64,000 nt of DNA from Pelagicoccus enzymogenes (GTDB taxonomy: Bacteria > Verrucomicrobiota > Verrucomicrobiia > Opitutales > Opitutaceae): positions 255,501 to 319,500 of the forward strand of contig NZ_JACYFG010000006.1 of assembly GCF_014803405.1 (NCBI RefSeq), read 5' to 3'. Below are positions 3,795-63,533 of the stretch, in pieces. The notes beneath the pieces were generated by a model, which was given only the letters and a program-made list of their open reading frames with translations, was not told the origin of the DNA and did no database searches. Numbering within the stretch: position 1 is the stretch's first letter; each line of letters starts with the position of its first letter. The translations under genes and the position numbers were made by a program.

Positions 3795-5102
3795 ATGAAA
3801 CACGCCCTGAACACACTCCTCTTCGCGTGCCTGAGCCTTGCATTCATTGCCAAAGCCCAAGCCGAGAACCCAACCTTCCTGCAAATTCCCGAGCTGACGG
3901 TCGCTCCCGACCGAGCCGACTGGACCTACGCCGTAGGCGACCCCATCTCATTCACCGTCTCCCTCAACGCCCACGGCAACCCGCTCAACGACGTCGAGCT
4001 CAGCTACCGCGTCGGACCAGAGTTCTACGAGGGCAACAGCCAAACCGCCACCTTGAGCGACGGGCGCTTCACTTTCCAAGCCGATCCCCTCGACCAGCCT
4101 GGCTTCCTCCGCTGCATCGCCACCGTGACGATCGACGGAAAAAGCTACTCCGCCAAGGCCACCGCGGCTTTCAGTCCCGAGAAGATCCGTCCCACTCAAA
4201 CCGAACCCGCCGACTTCGATTCCTTCTGGAACGGTCAACTAGAGTCCCTCAAAAAGATAGACCTGCGCCCCCTCAAAACCCCGTATTCGGAACTCAATAC
4301 ACCGGGAGCAAACGTCTACAAGGTCCGCTACCAATCATGGGGTAAGCTCAACGGTGAAGCTCCTTTCTACGGCGTGCTCACCGAACCGAACAAGGAAGGA
4401 AAATTCCCCGCCGTGCTGCAAGTCCCAGGAGCCGGCGTACGCTCCTACTCGGGAAATGTCGAACTCGCCGAAGCCGGCTTCATCGCCTTCCAAATCGGCA
4501 TCCACAGCATCCCCATCGACCTTGAAGGTGACGTGTATCCCAATCTCAGATACGCTGGTCTGCACAACTACTGGGCCTACAATCTCAACGACCGCGAGGA
4601 GTACTACTTCCGCCGCGTTTTCCTCGGCTGCGTCAAGGCCCTCGACGTGCTTACCTCGCATCCGAATTGGGACGGCGAAACCCTCATCGTCTACGGCGGT
4701 AGCCAAGGCGGATTCCTCAGTATCGTAACTGCTGCTCTCGACAAGCGGGTCACCGGACTCGTCGCCAACTACCCGGCCTACTGCGACGTCACTGGCACCC
4801 TGCACGACCGTGCCGGAGGCTGGCCCAAGATGTTCAACTACGAGCGCTACCGCCACGAGGACATGATCGCCACCACCGCCTACTACGACGGCGTAAATTT
4901 CGCCAAACGCCTCACCGTGCCCGGCAGCTTCGCCTTCGGCTACAACGACACCGTCTGCCCACCCACCAGCATGTATTCAGCTTACAACGTCATCACCGCG
5001 CCCAAGGACCTCACCATCCAAGTCGACATGGGCCACGGCCCCTCCGACGCATTCCGCGATGAGACATTCCAGCGCATCCTGCGGATCGCCGGACAAAAGT
5101 AG
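3795..5102 (+). CDS. Secreted acetyl xylan esterase / cephalosporin-C deacetylase-like esterase (CE7 type)
   Basis: This is a 435-residue alpha/beta hydrolase with a signal peptide at residues 1-23 (ending KAQA). An N-terminal beta-sandwich extension (about 30-115) precedes the AXE1-type hydrolase domain. The nucleophile is Ser303 in GGSQGG. The acid is the Asp of YNDTVCPPTSMYSAYN and the His that of DMGHGPSD near the C terminus. CE7 enzymes remove acetyl groups from xylan and xylo-oligosaccharides in the periplasm or outside the cell. The canonical CE7 RGQ motif is not obvious; the matching region reads AFQIGIHSIPID, so this is a divergent subfamily and the substrate is uncertain. It runs convergently into the oxidoreductase gene, with a REP-like pair between them. 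Confidence 0.87.
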   Translation: MKHALNTLLFACLSLAFIAKAQAENPTFLQIPELTVAPDRADWTYAVGDPISFTVSLNAHGNPLNDVELSYRVGPEFYEGNSQTATLSDGRFTFQADPLDQPGFLRCIATVTIDGKSYSAKATAAFSPEKIRPTQTEPADFDSFWNGQLESLKKIDLRPLKTPYSELNTPGANVYKVRYQSWGKLNGEAPFYGVLTEPNKEGKFPAVLQVPGAGVRSYSGNVELAEAGFIAFQIGIHSIPIDLEGDVYPNLRYAGLHNYWAYNLNDREEYYFRRVFLGCVKALDVLTSHPNWDGETLIVYGGSQGGFLSIVTAALDKRVTGLVANYPAYCDVTGTLHDRAGGWPKMFNYERYRHEDMIATTAYYDGVNFAKRLTVPGSFAFGYNDTVCPPTSMYSAYNVITAPKDLTIQVDMGHGPSDAFRDETFQRILRIAGQK

Positions 5103-5108
5103 CGGCTC

Positions 5109-5164
5109 GTAGGAAGCGGCCTTGCGCCGCCCCCTGTCAATCGCGACAGAAGATCGCTTCCCAC
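5109..5164. repeat. REP-like inverted pair between convergent genes
   Basis: Unit one (5109-5130, plus) starts GTAGGAAGCGG and forms the hairpin GCGGC-CTTGC-GCCGC. Unit two (5138-5164, inverted) reads GTGGGAAGCGATCTTCTGTC on the minus strand and forms GCGAT-CTTCT-GTCGC. The pair fills the 68-base gap between two convergent genes, as REP/BIME elements do. It belongs to a family also seen near 7784, 9456, 19498, 23000, 34880 and 63445. Confidence 0.75.
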
Positions 5165-6725: not shown

Positions 6726-7781
6726 ATGAACCAGAACTTCCGCGTCACCCAAGCCGATATCGCCCGCAAAGTCGGCTGCAGCCAAGTCACCGTTTCCAGA
6801 GCCTTGAACGACGACCACCGCGTGGCCGAGGACCTGAAAAACACCATCAAGCAGACGGCTGACCAGTTGGGCTACCGCCCCGACCCCATGCTCCGCGCCT
6901 TGGTCACTTCCCGACGTTACCTCAACGCCAAAAGCGCCAACGCCAGCATCGCCTTCGTCTACGTCGGCAACAAGCCCGACCCCAACACCCCCTTCAGCAA
7001 CTTCGAGTACTACAAGGGCGTGAAGGACAAGTCCGAGGCCCTCGGCTTCAATCTCGAAGCCCTCAAGTTCGACTCTGGCGAGATCTCCTCCGAACGCTTT
7101 GCCAGCATCCTGCGCCATCGCGGCGTCAAGGGCGTCGTCTTCGCCCTAGCCAGCGGACACTGGATATTCACCCAACCCATCTTCGAACTGCCCGAATTCG
7201 CCTACGTATCACTCGGCTACAATTTCGCCCACACGCCGGTCAACTGCATCATGCCGGACAACTACCACTCCATCACTGTCGCCTTCCGTACCGCCCTCGA
7301 TCGCGGCCACAAGCGAATCGGCCTCGCCGTCTCCAAAACGCAAAACGAACGCATCGACTACGCCTTCACCGACAGCTTCCGCCGTATCGCTTTGGAAAAC
7401 GGAATCGATCCGGACGCAATGATCCACCTCTTCCGCCACGAAACCGAAGAAGAGCGTGCCTGTATCGACGAGAAAATGACCGCATGGATGCAGCAAGCCC
7501 AACCCGACGTCGTTATCGGCGAACTCGGAACCCGCCCGCACCTGCAAAAGATACTGGATCGCGAAGGCAAGACCATCGGCAAAGACCTCCCCTTCATCTG
7601 CCTCGACATCCGGGCCCGCCTCAACGGCGACGACAGCGGACTCATCGGCAACCGCGAACTCATGGGCCAACGGGCCGTGGAGAACATCGCTTCCCAAATC
7701 ACACGCAACCACGCCGGCCTCCCCCGCACCTACGAACGCCTGCTCGTGCAGTCCACCTGGCACGACGGAGAAACCTTCTAG
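6726..7781 (+). CDS. LacI/GalR-family transcriptional regulator
   Basis: The protein has 351 residues. Residues 5-55 form the LacI DNA-binding domain: helix-turn-helix VTQADIARKVGCSQVTVSRALN, then the hinge LGYRPDPML. The rest is a periplasmic-binding-protein-like effector domain (for example FEYYKGVKDKSEALGF and MPDNYHSITVAFRTALDRGHKRIGL). Family members bind palindromic operators and respond to a sugar or sugar phosphate. It is divergent from the oxidoreductase and followed by a GPH transporter, so these are plausible targets. The palindrome at 7910-7933 upstream of the transporter is a candidate operator. Confidence 0.92.
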   Translation: MNQNFRVTQADIARKVGCSQVTVSRALNDDHRVAEDLKNTIKQTADQLGYRPDPMLRALVTSRRYLNAKSANASIAFVYVGNKPDPNTPFSNFEYYKGVKDKSEALGFNLEALKFDSGEISSERFASILRHRGVKGVVFALASGHWIFTQPIFELPEFAYVSLGYNFAHTPVNCIMPDNYHSITVAFRTALDRGHKRIGLAVSKTQNERIDYAFTDSFRRIALENGIDPDAMIHLFRHETEEERACIDEKMTAWMQQAQPDVVIGELGTRPHLQKILDREGKTIGKDLPFICLDIRARLNGDDSGLIGNRELMGQRAVENIASQITRNHAGLPRTYERLLVQSTWHDGETF

Positions 7782-7783
7782 TT

Positions 7784-7845
7784 GTAGGAAGCGACCTCGT
7801 GTCGCGATTGCAGAGAGGCTGATCGCGACGCATGCTCGCTCCCCC
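7784..7845. repeat. REP-like inverted pair after LacI gene
   Basis: Three bases after the regulator stop codon, GTAGGAAGCGACCTCGTGTC begins a unit (7784-7810) with stem GCGAC/GTCGC. An inverted partner occupies 7821-7845, reading GGGGGAGCGAGCATGCGTCG on the minus strand. It has the same head, hairpin and tail order as the other REP-like copies. Confidence 0.72.
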
Positions 7846-9455: not shown

Positions 9456-9556
9456 GTGGGAAGCGTGCTCTCGGCGAGGCGTAGCTCGATTGCCGAGCAA
9501 AGACTGTTGTCACGCGATTTCCAGCAACGCAATCGCGACACAAGGTCGCTTCCCAC
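9456..9556. repeat. REP-like units flanking a 101-bp segment
   Basis: A plus unit starts GTGGGAAGCGTGCTCTCGG at 9456. The inverted unit at 9530-9556 reads GTGGGAAGCGACCTTGTGTC on the minus strand with stem GCGAC/GTCGC. The inverted unit is nearly identical to the copy at 7784-7810. The segment between carries weak complementary runs such as CTCGGCGAG. Confidence 0.7.
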
Positions 9557-17923: not shown

Positions 17924-17940
17924 ATTTTCCAACTAACTTT

Positions 17941-17968
17941 GGCGTGGCTCGCACTTTCGAGCCACGCC
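17941..17968 (+). terminator. Second terminator hairpin before the GH-A gene
   Basis: A perfect 11-bp stem GGCGTGGCTCG/CGAGCCACGCC with loop CACTTT is followed by TTTTCTCTTT. It lies just upstream of the next gene's start at 17999, so it could also act as a leader attenuator. Confidence 0.7.
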
Positions 17969-17998
17969 TTTTCTCTTTGCAATACCAACCATACGACA

Positions 17999-19501
17999 AT
18001 GCCAACTCTTAGCCGCTGTCTCACGTCAGCCATCCTTGTATCCGCAGCATACCTACAAGCTGAAACACCTCCCGACCTTTCAACCGATTTCGAGGAATGG
18101 CAGCTCGCCGAAAAGGGAATAATCGAAAGCATGCCGGACGACTATCAGCTCGTCGGACGACTCACTCCCCGCGACGCCACGCAAATAAGCAGTTCCCTGC
18201 TCGGCATCGGTGGCGAAACAATGGACCGCGACTTCACTCGCTTCGAAGCCTGGTCCCCCTACCTCGAGCCCCTCGGAGCCAAACGCATTCGCTTGCAAAG
18301 CGGCTGGGCCAAAACCGAAACCCAAAAGGGCAAATACGACTTCGCTTGGCTCGACCGCATCGTCAACGGCTGCCTCGCAGCCGGAGTCCAACCCTGGCTG
18401 AGCCTCAGCTACGGAAACCCCATTTACGAAGGCGCCGGCGGCACCGGCCTCGGTGGCGGACTACCTCATTCTGCGGAAGCCTTGCAAGCCTGGGAAAACT
18501 ACGTTCGCGCCTCCATCCAACACTTCGGCGACCGCGTCGAAACCTACGAAATCTGGAACGAGGCCGACCTGAAGCACAACCAGAGCCAAGCCGGCGCCTA
18601 CCCACGCCTCTACGAACGCACCGCCCGAATCATCCGCGAGGAACAACCCGACGCGACCATCCTTGCCCTCGCCCTCGCCTACGTACACGCCCGCCCCGAT
18701 TCCGGACTCGTCGACTTCGTTGAAACACTCGCTGCCCACGACACGCTTCACCTCGTCGACGGCATCACGGTGCACGGTTATCCCGCCAACCCCGACCACG
18801 GCTTCGAGCGCCACGCCGAGGTCCAAGCCTACCTTTCCCAACACCTTCCCCACGCCGTCATCTGGCAAGGCGAAACCGGAGCCCCCTCCGAACGCGCCCC
18901 AAAGTTCGCCCTCAAAAATCTCGATTGGACCGAACTCAGCCAGGCCAAGTGGGACCTCCGCCGCGCCCTTGCCCATTGGTCCCGCGAGATTCCCTTCTCC
19001 CTCTTTTCCATCTCCGAAATGAACTACGATCAGCAGCACTTCGACATTTTGAATACAAAAGGAAAACTCAAAATCCGCCCGAACGACCTCTCCATCGAAC
19101 GACCCAAAATCTCCTACTTCTCCTACCGCAACGCCTGCAGCCTATTCGCCGACCAGCGCGTCCCCCAAAAACGCGACACCGCCATCGCCAACCACAGCAG
19201 CCTCTACAGCTTCAAAATCCACGACCGAGCAAACGGCAAGCAAGGCTTCGTCTTCTGGGACGCCGCCAGCCAACCCGGCGACCGCTTCGAGGCCCAACGC
19301 ACCGATATCGTCGCCACCGACCTAAGCCTGCAAAACCCCGTCCTGCTTGACCTCCTAAGCGGACTCGTCTGGTCCCTCCCTGAGGCAACGCTCGCCCAGT
19401 TTGGTCCCAGCCTCAGCCTCTACGACATGCCCGTCTGGGACAGCCCCCGCGTCATCGCCGACGCCCAACTCTTCGACTGGACCCCACTAAACCAACCGTA
19501 G
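17999..19501 (+). CDS. Secreted clan GH-A glycoside hydrolase (GH39/GH5-like)
   Basis: The protein is 500 residues from the ATG at 17999, which starts a signal peptide (MPTLSRCLTSAILVSAAYLQ, cleaved near AE). A (beta/alpha)8 barrel of the GH-A clan follows. The likely acid/base is Glu188 in YEIWNEAD and the likely nucleophile Glu292 in IWQGETGAPS. A small C-terminal beta domain (about 390-500) follows the barrel. The N-terminal GGETMDRDF and GAKRIRLQSGWAKTE strands are typical of beta-xylosidase-like barrels. The family number and substrate are not certain. The stop codon overlaps a REP-like element, and a sulfatase gene follows on the same strand. Confidence 0.8.
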   Translation: MPTLSRCLTSAILVSAAYLQAETPPDLSTDFEEWQLAEKGIIESMPDDYQLVGRLTPRDATQISSSLLGIGGETMDRDFTRFEAWSPYLEPLGAKRIRLQSGWAKTETQKGKYDFAWLDRIVNGCLAAGVQPWLSLSYGNPIYEGAGGTGLGGGLPHSAEALQAWENYVRASIQHFGDRVETYEIWNEADLKHNQSQAGAYPRLYERTARIIREEQPDATILALALAYVHARPDSGLVDFVETLAAHDTLHLVDGITVHGYPANPDHGFERHAEVQAYLSQHLPHAVIWQGETGAPSERAPKFALKNLDWTELSQAKWDLRRALAHWSREIPFSLFSISEMNYDQQHFDILNTKGKLKIRPNDLSIERPKISYFSYRNACSLFADQRVPQKRDTAIANHSSLYSFKIHDRANGKQGFVFWDAASQPGDRFEAQRTDIVATDLSLQNPVLLDLLSGLVWSLPEATLAQFGPSLSLYDMPVWDSPRVIADAQLFDWTPLNQP

Positions 19502-19527
19502 GGCGCGGGCTTTACTGCCCGTCCCGC
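19498..19527 (+). repeat. REP-like element overlapping a stop codon
   Basis: GTAGGGCGCGGGCTTTACTG starts at 19498, and its TAG is the stop codon of the GH-A gene. CGGGC and GCCCG form the short stem. Only one unit is visible here. Confidence 0.5.
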
Positions 19528-22999: not shown

Positions 23000-23075
23000 G
23001 TAGCGCTGAGCTTTAGCCAGCGTCAACTTTGCAAGATCAATCCATAGAAAAACGCTGGCTAAAGCTCAGACCTAC
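23000..23075. repeat. REP-like inverted pair with 18-bp perfect arms
   Basis: The plus unit GTAGCGCTGAGCTTTAGCCA (23000-23023) is mirrored by the minus unit GTAGGTCTGAGCTTTAGCCA (23075-23052). The arms CTGAGCTTTAGCCAGCGT at 23006-23023 and their exact complement at 23052-23069 are 28 bases apart. Each arm is itself a small hairpin. Confidence 0.78.
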
Positions 23076-34879: not shown

Positions 34880-34904
34880 CAGGGCCATCGGTAGGCCCTG
34901 CTAC
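34880..34904 (-). repeat. REP-like single unit downstream of the metallophosphoesterase gene
   Basis: On the minus strand the element starts GTAG followed by stem CAGGGCC / GGCCCTG with loop TACCGAT. It lies between the metallophosphoesterase stop and the LacI start and has no T-run. Its head and stem layout match the other copies. Confidence 0.5.
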
Positions 34905-62384: not shown

Positions 62385-62453
62385 TCGACGCCTCGAGCGT
62401 TTATACTGCCACACACACGCGGGACCTGGTTGGCCCGCTCGCTCCACACGCAC

Positions 62454-63437
62454 ATGGCGAACATACTCCAACCTACCGAGGAAAACTTACGCGATCTGCG
62501 TAAGTTTTTGCTTTTTGGGGGACTGGTCGGCGTCCCCACCGAGACTGTCTACGGACTGGCCGCCAACGCCTTTGACGCTCAAGCCTGCGCCAAGATCTTC
62601 GAAGCGAAGCAACGTCCGGCCAACGACCCCTTGATCTGCCACATCTCCGGCGTCGAGGCGCTCGAACAAATTTGCTACGCCAACCCGCTGGCAATCCGCC
62701 TTGCGGAACGCTTCTGGCCCGGCCCCCTCACCTTCGTCCTGCCCAAGAAGGACAAGATACCCGGCATCGTCACAGCAGGACTTGACTCAGTGGGCGTGCG
62801 CTGCTCCGCCCACCCGGAATTCCAGAGACTAGTCGCCCAGTGCGACTTTCCTCTCGCCGCCCCCAGCGCCAACCCCTTCGCCTACATCAGCCCCACCACC
62901 GCCCAGCACGTGGAAGCAGGTCTCGGCTCGAAAATCCAATTCATCCTCGACGGCGGCCCCTGCGCCTTCGGCGTGGAGTCGACCATCCTCGACCTGCGCG
63001 ACGAGTCCCAGCCGCGCATCCTGCGCTACGGAGCCCTGCCCGCCGAGGAAATCGAGGCGGAGCTGGGCCGCTCCATCGAAAAGCCGGCCGCCACTTCCGC
63101 CGACGAATCCGTGCAGCACCTCGCCCCCGGCTCCCTGCCCAAGCACTACAGCCCCCGCACGCCGCTCGACCTGCGAGGCGGAATCGCAACGAGCGAGCTT
63201 GAAACGCTGCCACCCAAAACCGCCGCACTGCTGCTGGCCAAGCCGCAGCAAGATCGCGGCAAAAACGTGCATTGGCTCTCCGAAGACGGAAAACTCTCCG
63301 AAATCGCGGCCAACCTCTTCGCCAAGCTGCGAGAGCTCGACGAAGCCGGCTACTCGCGAATCATCGCCGAAGAAGCCCCCGAACTGGGACTCGGACTGGC
63401 CATCAACGACCGCCTGCGCCGCGCTTCGTTTCGGTAG
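62454..63437 (+). CDS. tsaC: L-threonylcarbamoyladenylate synthase (Sua5/YrdC/TsaC family)
   Basis: The protein is 327 residues from the ATG at 62454. The YrdC domain (about 1-200) shows GVPTETVYGLAANAFDAQAC, IFEAKQRPANDPLICHI, FWPGPLTFVLPKKDKI, GVRCSAHPEFQRL and PSANPFAYISPTTAQHV. The C-terminal Sua5 domain (about 220-327) starts after LAPGSLPKHYSPRTPLDL. It makes threonylcarbamoyl-AMP from Thr, bicarbonate and ATP for tRNA t6A37. The two-domain length fits the Sua5 subtype. It follows rpsR by 69 bases and may be cotranscribed. Confidence 0.95.
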   Translation: MANILQPTEENLRDLRKFLLFGGLVGVPTETVYGLAANAFDAQACAKIFEAKQRPANDPLICHISGVEALEQICYANPLAIRLAERFWPGPLTFVLPKKDKIPGIVTAGLDSVGVRCSAHPEFQRLVAQCDFPLAAPSANPFAYISPTTAQHVEAGLGSKIQFILDGGPCAFGVESTILDLRDESQPRILRYGALPAEEIEAELGRSIEKPAATSADESVQHLAPGSLPKHYSPRTPLDLRGGIATSELETLPPKTAALLLAKPQQDRGKNVHWLSEDGKLSEIAANLFAKLRELDEAGYSRIIAEEAPELGLGLAINDRLRRASFR

Positions 63438-63444
63438 GAAAGAG

Positions 63445-63533
63445 GTAGGAGCGAGCTTGCTCGCGATCATCCAAGAGGCCACGCCAGATTGAACTGGCGC
63501 AATTTCAAATCGTGCCACAAGGGCACTTCCCAC
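63445..63533. repeat. REP-like inverted pair after tsaC, Pseudomonas-REP-like unit
   Basis: The plus unit (63445-63468) starts GTAGGAGCGAGCTTGCTCGC, a perfect 6-bp GCGAGC/GCTCGC stem. The inverted unit (63533-63506) reads GTGGGAAGTGCCCTTGTGGC with stem GTGCC/GGCAC. Between them sits a third hairpin CGCCAG-ATTGAA-CTGGCG (63482-63499). The pair fills the gap between convergent genes. Confidence 0.78.

Follow-up and report, generated by a model that had tools for sequence, protein, structure and literature searches.

Hairpin units of the window

The question raised by this stretch of the Pelagicoccus enzymogenes genome is what its short, recurring hairpins are and how they came to lie where they do. 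The window, as we call the whole stretch of 64,000 nucleotides, spans G000:C5:255501-319500 in a genome (G000) of 6,225,872 bases and 60 contigs. The hairpins are very probably REPs of several families, mostly arranged as REPINs, which were spread by RAYTs encoded elsewhere in the genome, each amid its cognate REPs.

Classes D, I, B and J are present in the window together with a long-loop unit, ML; the class letters are labels of this analysis. The class D unit at 5109..5133 (+ strand; stem GCGGC/GCCGC; tail decayed, as judged by eye) starts 6 bp past the stop of the gene at 3795-5102 and is the left member of an inverted pair, with the class D unit GTGGGAAGCGATCTTCTGTCGCGAT at 5140..5164 (− strand; pattern match C5:260640-260664) as its right member. 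Another class D unit, at 7784..7808 (+; stem GCGAC/GTCGC), lies 2 bp past the stop of the gene at 6726-7781 and pairs with a decayed D-like unit at 7821..7845 (−), assigned by eye, whose head reads GGGGG. The ML unit, a long-loop REP-like element at 9456..9519 (+), has the head GTGGGAA and the stem GCGTG/CACGC around ~40 nt with an inner hairpin, and its partner is the class D unit at 9532..9556 (−; stem GCGAC/GTCGC; match C5:265032-265056). At 19498..19526 (+), the GTAG head of a class B unit gives the TAG stop of the gene at 17939-19501. Two class J units, at 23000..23020 (+; bulged stem, loop TTTA; C5:278500-278520) and 23055..23075 (−; C5:278555-278575), are the left and right members of an inverted pair. 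Finally, the class I unit at 63445..63467 (+; stem GCGAG/CTCGC; C5:318945-318967), 7 bp past the stop of the gene at 62430-63437, forms a mixed I/D inverted pair with the class D unit at 63509..63533 (−; stem GTGCC/GGCAC; C5:319009-319033). Searched against Rfam at gathering scores, the whole window returned nothing but one tRNA.

The original prediction had read twelve places as units of one dispersed family. Eleven of them are family units, some decayed as judged by eye; the twelfth, a hairpin at 34880..34904 (−; GTAGCAGGGCC-TACCGAT-GGCCCTG), occurs once in a 1.08-Mb sample of the genome and is ruled out as a REP. The repeats are multicopy as proposed, but they fall into several families (D, I, B, J and ML), and a single family with covarying stems is ruled out, since the stems brought together in the prediction derive from several families. 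The unit at 9456 proved to be not a plain REP but a long-loop variant with at least seven copies in the genome. The proposed common head, GTAGG or GTGGG, is absent at 23000 and 34880 (both GTAGC) and at 7821 (GGGGG). Units do lie just after stops at 5109, 7784, 9456 and 63445 (2–7 bp), as had been claimed for most; the one at 19498 overlaps its stop and the one at 23000 lies 66 bp downstream. The claimed inverted pairs are seen at 5109/5164, 7784/7845, 9456/9556, 23000/23075 and 63445/63533.

Long-loop units and extended class D repeats

Seven ML copies, a lower bound for the genome, share the frame GCGTGCTC - ~38 nt with an inner hairpin - GTCACGCGA, of which the first part varies (window 9456-9519; L031:4128; L253, L259, L312, L313; G000:C16:21495). 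Six of the seven follow a frame of 100 codons or more, 9–44 bp downstream of its stop. Their consensus fold has 16 pairs, 2 of them changed on both sides, with a covariation term of just -0.16. The head and outer stem match those of class M (GTRGGAGCGTGCTTGTCACGCGAT; 14 frame matches in the 1.08-Mb sample), so that ML looks like a class M unit carrying a structured insert in its loop. An open-access literature search that was not aimed at this point met no report of long-loop units.

In a separate group, inverted pairs of class D are embedded in a ~150-bp non-coding repeat with conserved outer arms (L322:952-1106, L323:962-1112, L324:1010-1140, L325:1032-1166, L326:1287-1441 and L327:1314-1464), and the 7784 locus carries part of the right arm of this repeat in the flank right of 7821..7845. 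Units of classes D, H and E/F also recur in mixed clusters (G000:C9:13352-13664, C16:21576-21792, C35:584340-584917 and C38:3600-4120), which look as though REPs had inserted into or next to other REPs. A repeat of a different kind was seen in L037 from ~2650 (G000:C5:842650), where ~19–20 copies of GTCGCTCCCTCACGGGAGCGCGGATTGAAAC, assembled by eye, form a CRISPR-like array.

REP classes and copy numbers in the genome

Genome-wide, the class patterns matched 136 times for D, 56 for I, 90 for A/C, 74 for E/F, 63 for J, 19 for H and 9 for B, against 0, 2, 0, 0, 3, 0 and 0 matches, respectively, of the reversed patterns used as controls. The class D pattern reads GTRGGAA-stem-CTYNY-stem-GAT and that of class I GTRGGA-stem-CTYG-stem-GAT. 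Only the D, I and A/C patterns left the whole stem unspecified; it was partly fixed for E/F and H, mostly fixed for B, and fixed with at most 3 mismatches for J. Conservation of head, loop and tail lies outside what these patterns test, because they fix those parts. A short palindrome with a terminal GTRG head characterizes classes A–F, I, J and M, and the heads of classes G (8 matches in the 1.08-Mb sample) and H are GGTGGG or GGAGGG rather than GTRG.

A search for any GTRGG-headed hairpin gave a modest excess in the window alone, with 11 matches against a mean of 4.65 and a maximum of 8 in 20 shuffles, and 81 matches in a 464-kb sample against 26–33 in three shuffles. The genome-wide excess over chance is decisive.

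Stem covariation within classes

The prediction that stems vary and yet stay paired is correct, partly as a result of pooling several families and partly as a real property inside families. Among the 100 class D units listed of the 136 found, all five pairs are Watson-Crick in 87, and the most variable position is paired in 98 against 44.4 expected for independent columns; the main stems in the same 100 are GCGGC/GCCGC (43), GCGAC/GTCGC (31), GTGCC/GGCAC (8) and GTGGC/GCCAC (4). Class A/C is fully paired in 81 of 90 units, with 87 paired against 31.3 expected at the most variable position, and has nine fully paired stem types that each occur at least twice. For class I the figures are 52 of 56 units, and 54 against 29.3. 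The outer pair of class J is T-A in 41, C-G in 11 and G-C in 5 of 63 units (57 seen, 32.6 expected), and 11 of 15 class E/F strings are fully paired (the 15, of which 11 are distinct, come from 74 units). Several other stem positions are nearly invariant and thus uninformative on covariation. Based on the patterns in which the stem was left free, the stems of D, I and A/C covary strongly, even though the counts overstate the number of changes because near-identical copies are related rather than independent events.

Pairing of this kind could also come from template switching at quasi-palindromes, which corrects one arm after the other and needs no selection by a RAYT. Quasi-palindrome correction is a known replication error, and half-changed stems between the common paired types are few, only 9 of 90 A/C units being unpaired somewhere. 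We consider this origin of the pairing unlikely: mismatches in the stem impaired or nearly abolished in vitro cutting by a related enzyme in the experiments described in the consulted part of PMC8266576. The two processes are compatible with each other. In the S. maltophilia pair of the same report (Corneloup et al. 2021), which treats TnpAREP/REP pairs of E. coli, S. maltophilia and Marinomonas, stem sequence is tolerated and pairing is needed, and loop and head are critical for cutting; as far as that part of the paper goes, these requirements fit the free stems with fixed heads and loops found here.

Inverted pairs and gene context

In a map of 1.08 Mb, made of 98 pieces that are a non-random choice, many having been selected for containing a unit, same-class neighbours at most 70 bp apart are arranged tail-to-tail in 40 of 42 pairs. 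Mixed-class pairs occur as well, such as I with D at 63445/63533 in the window. Of the 15 E/F pairs on this map, 11 are copies of one pair type with a 23-nt spacing.

On first lists, the two members of a pair had unlike stems in 15 of 17 D, 12 of 13 A/C and 23 of 23 E/F pairs; when stems were redealt within each class, the excess had p = 0.03 (D), 0.25 (A/C) and 0.00017 (E/F). A rule of unlike stems nevertheless fails. Further D pairs beyond the 100 of 136 units listed have like stems, J pairs (4 of 5) and I pairs (2 of 3) are mostly alike, and the E/F signal is mostly one pair type copied repeatedly. In the accessible text of PMC3733652, the preference for like or unlike stems is described as varying from family to family. 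Folding shows in the model that unlike stems would weaken a single long hairpin: the predicted mean gain over two separate hairpins is -14.0 kcal/mol for unlike against -24.1 for like stems in D, -11.6 against -27.7 in A/C, and -6.6 against -18.2 in E/F.

Of 247 units placed on the map, 145 are intergenic (66 in convergent gaps, 72 in tandem gaps and 7 in divergent ones), 100 fall within called ORFs and 2 at edges; the count of 100 is affected by a crude ORF caller, which called 91% of bases coding. The background of gaps of at least 40 bp, to be set against the 145 intergenic units, comprises 130 convergent, 306 tandem and 123 divergent ones. With many units right behind stops and few in divergent gaps, this placement would suit ordinary intrinsic terminators or stabilizers of mRNA 3' ends that arose independently after genes and came to look alike by convergence. 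Such an origin is very improbable, given that heads, loops and tails are shared by tens to more than 100 copies against 0–3 matches of the reversed patterns, that like units flank RAYT genes, and that congeners have empty sites. It is possible that REPs acquired a terminator role after insertion.

Stop codons supplied by REP heads

The TAG of the head ends a frame of at least 100 codons in 43 of 168 GTAG-headed units, compared with 608 of the 7017 GTAGs in the sample. By class, such heads number 18 of 37 in I, 7 of 9 in B, 8 of 37 in A/C, 5 of 24 in J, 4 of 46 in E/F and 1 of 15 in D, so that I and B show a clear excess and A/C and J a moderate one, with no excess in E/F and D. Several of these frames compete with another stop, and some do not correspond to the real gene. 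Five of the RAYTs themselves (A, B, C, E and F) end at the TAG of a REP head.

The unit at 19498 bears on how this comes about. The empty site in congener G001 reads ...LN-TGA and the occupied site in G000 ...LNQP-TAG(REP); since the empty site ends in a TGA of its own, the stop at 19498 arrived with the element. A GTAG already present in the host as the target is disfavoured by this empty site. The RAYT B locus shows the same ending, ...ALLP-stop, in both species, as judged by eye. In these cases, which are small in number, the REP carries the stop and is tolerated at gene ends, and a GTAG head that acts as a ready-made stop offers a simple reason for that tolerance.

RAYT genes and their cognate repeats

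Eight RAYT genes are encoded in the genome. A PF01797 search found eight loci, seven of them above the curated cut-off, and a profile of the eight RAYTs found the same eight and two N-terminal fragments adjoining RAYT A. All eight loci lie elsewhere than in the window, from which a RAYT gene had rightly been stated to be absent. Their frames are open, with no internal stops in any of the eight, and MPDHxH, a Tyr and NP are invariant in 8/8. Among solved structures, the profile matches TnpArep 4er8 best (E 8.8e-19), and NF047646 REP_Tyr_transpos matches all eight at E values up to 1e-3, the D protein scoring 86.3 (cut-off 80). Each gene lies between units of its own class (A at L001, B at L002, C at L003, D at L004, E at L005, F at L006, G at L007 and H at L008); the upstream flanking unit of RAYT C is truncated. 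Cognate units are also dispersed for all eight loci. Many copies together with RAYTs flanked by like units, the combination that was predicted to mark a REP/RAYT system, are thus found for window classes D and B and for classes outside the window. The matches of 8/8 proteins to the NCBIfam family and the covariation of stems inside families support this reading, in which the RAYTs would be what mobilized the units.

Two features of individual loci were noted. RAYT E (L005:1351-1926) has no start codon before the point where the domain of its relatives starts, the first being the TTG at 1662, and differs from these relatives at the N-terminus; the gene may be decayed. The fragments beside RAYT A (L001:1018-1149 and 1904-2035) contain stops, lie each between class A REPs, and represent a partial tandem duplication of the REP/RAYT unit.

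By analogy with TnpAREP, a Y1/HUH enzyme, a RAYT would bind the folded, single-stranded hairpin and read its GTRG head and loop; its tyrosine would cut, and the element would then be pasted elsewhere. Copies landing at gene 3' ends would survive. With stem pairing outweighing stem sequence, new stem types would arise and remain paired. The RAYTs of this genome would have cut and copied their units in this manner, and may still do so. Units of classes I and J flank none of the genome's eight RAYTs, and they would owe their copies to an enzyme of this type; a RAYT flanked by a class-I-like unit is present in an Opitutae MAG (L056).

REP head type is clustered on a RAYT tree of 43 proteins, drawn from the best 80 of 390 relatives plus the eight of this genome and the gene of G004. 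Heads of the flanking repeats were labelled by eye at 37 loci, of which L049, L057 and L111 were dropped for frames that are short or broken. Repeats are also present at L046 and L081, with heads of other types, and at L109, and these three did not enter the tree; the remainder of the 80 had no clear repeat. Head type changes 8 times on this tree against a mean of 18.8 after shuffling, and 0 of 200 shuffles were as low; L052 had been labelled as lacking GTAG though its repeats start GTGGGA/GTAGGG, and relabelling it gives 7 changes. Of the RAYTs of this genome, D falls on one branch, A, B and C on a second, and E, F and G on a third, next to which H is placed, in a tree where 13 of 40 inner branches are unresolved and some terminal branches are long.

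Empty sites and REP families in congeners

Comparison with congeners shows sites with and without the element. At the 7784 site, the flanking aligned blocks are separated by 36 bp in G001 and by 18 bp in G003, where G000 has 140 and 135 bp, and both congeners lack a REP there; the 19498 site of G001 is likewise without one. It is the empty sites alone that show past movement; mobilization by a RAYT is inferred. Other sites are occupied differently. The 5109 site holds a different GTAGGG unit in G001, with 5 copies in its contig, and ~1.9 kb of other sequence in G003; the 9456 site holds GTAGG-headed, hairpin-like sequence of other kinds in both. Facing window position 5109, G001:C96 (L250) also has, enclosing a REP of a different class, a short MITE-like element whose inverted ends read AGAGCATTTTTCGTTT ... 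AAACGAAAAACGCTCT.

Across 57 genomes, the D pattern matched 136 times in G000, 36 in G004 (one listed match is not REP-like), 5 in G007 and once in G003, and five further genomes had 1–2 matches each that are not REP-like in appearance. The best match to RAYT D outside G000, in G004, is 52% identical, and no match in any other genome exceeds 40% identity. Both of the two genomes that encode RAYT D or a RAYT at least 50% identical to it have more than 10 D-pattern copies, as do 0 of the 55 others; the D-like RAYT of G004 is flanked by class M and not D, so the link of the D copies to that enzyme is indirect.

Classes D, M, I, A/C and E/F have no match in 277 kb of G001 contig C96, which contains 1 J unit and 5 of the other GTAGGG class. 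A 98-kb stretch of G003 has one D match and none of the other patterns, and a 400-kb sample of G004, with contigs picked for D matches, has 1 D, 3 M, 3 A/C, 2 E/F and 2 J. Near-complete turnover of REP families between congeners would be too strong a description, as the G001 counterpart of RAYT C keeps its C units; complete turnover is contradicted also by the A/C, E/F, J and M units of the G004 sample.

These comparisons bear on whether the REPs, copied in the distant past, could instead be static relics that the host keeps for a role at RNA 3' ends or in the topology of its DNA, while the RAYTs serve some other function. Classes I and J without a RAYT of their own, five D-pattern units in G007 with no D-type RAYT, the A/C, E/F, J and M units common to G000 and G004, and the RAYT E frame that lacks a start codon before its relatives' domain region would all suit such relics. 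We regard this as improbable in view of the empty sites in congeners and the eight open RAYT frames, of the single E/F pair type with 23-nt spacing that makes up 11 of the 15 E/F pairs in the sample, and of the absence of D, M, I, A/C and E/F from 277 kb of one G001 contig. REPs spread by RAYTs remain the preferred explanation.

Divergence of syntenic RAYTs

Four RAYTs have syntenic counterparts, supported within the sequence compared on both sides for B in G003, upstream for D in G004 and F in G006, and downstream for C in G001. All four are less conserved than all the neighbours compared. Protein identity is 52.4% for D against 93.2 and 93.5 for its neighbours, 62.8% for B against 94.8 and 86.9, 61.1% for C against 87.5 and 91.4, and 69.5% for F against 82.5. 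Synonymous differences per site (pS) are likewise higher, at 0.774 against 0.246 and 0.344 (D), 0.395 against 0.192 and 0.237 (B), 0.763 against 0.524 and 0.374 (C), and 0.578 against 0.503 (F). The pN/pS ratio is 0.34–0.60 for the RAYTs and 0.12–0.31 for seven neighbours. Window genes compared as controls with G001 and G003 only gave pS of 0.247–0.638, pN/pS of 0.10–0.31 and protein identity of 70.0–94.2%; the pS excess of RAYT F is small, and the pS values of B and F lie inside this control range. The flanking REPs at these homes differ between the genomes at D (class M in G004), B and F and are nearly alike at C.

Genus-wide, the RAYT/REP pairs may be specificity modules that are rapidly rewritten at fixed homes, with RAYTs outpacing their neighbours, some REPs changing too, and REP families rising, switching and fading between congeneric species. 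We put this forward tentatively, the alternative being replacement by a diverged allele. In the open-access literature search, which was not aimed at this question, no report of RAYTs diverging faster than their syntenic neighbours was met.

Relation to known systems

These are genuine REP/REPIN–RAYT systems of a kind already known and reported in Opitutus terrae; less expected here are the fast-changing RAYTs at fixed sites, the stop-supplying REP heads and ML. Di Nocera et al. 2013 (PMC3733652) describe GTAG REP families and family-specific REPtrons in O. terrae, a member of the same phylum. According to the accessible parts of that report, several GTAG families share one genome there and form inverted dimers with family-specific REPtrons, GTGG heads are in the majority in family GTAG-20, and REPs occur inside genes and in flanks that overlap RAYT genes (figure legend), all as here, the likeness being one of description. 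Those same parts contain no comparison of divergence between RAYTs and their neighbours and no long-loop units. In the passage of PMC6006769 consulted, the word Verrucomicrobi is absent.

RAYTs of Stenotrophomonas and P. fluorescens offer further likenesses. In the sections consulted of Nunvar et al. (2010, PMC2817692; 2013, PMC3686654), whose Stenotrophomonas case study has six rayt genes, RAYT and REP diverge together and orthologous RAYTs have different REPs. Inverted flanking REPs, hybrid BIMEs and palindromes kept by complementary mutations are described there as they are found here, and the layout of class I is that of the P. fluorescens REPs in the Table 1 passage. In contrast to those systems, the present one belongs to Verrucomicrobiota, and its eight RAYTs, all in a single genome, represent at least three lineages; two of them, G and H, have heads that read GGTGGG or GGAGGG and lack GTAG. 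In the latter respect they resemble the TIRYT/TIRtron of PMC3733652, where, in the text available, a RAYT-like gene lies between inverted repeats that lack GTAG. Unlike those of a TIRtron, the repeats of G and H are palindromes found dispersed (19 of H genome-wide, 8 of G in 1.08 Mb), but TIRs that are self-complementary and dispersed also appear in the same text, which may leave little difference. The TnpAREP of PMC8266576 is, in the part consulted, an HUH and Tyr protein paired with a GTAG-headed hairpin, as here; that work is biochemical, whereas the proteins here are known from sequence.

Implications for RAYT biology

If true, rewriting at fixed homes runs opposite to a picture in which RAYTs are domesticated, housekeeping-like transposases that change slowly, and should fast divergence be general here, limits would have to be set to that picture. 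At D (G000/G004) and B (G000/G003), the syntenic pairs present enzyme and substrate before and after a REP change at one locus. Eight RAYTs with REP classes of their own, together with congeners at varied distances, make a natural test bed for the specificity of REP recognition and its changes.
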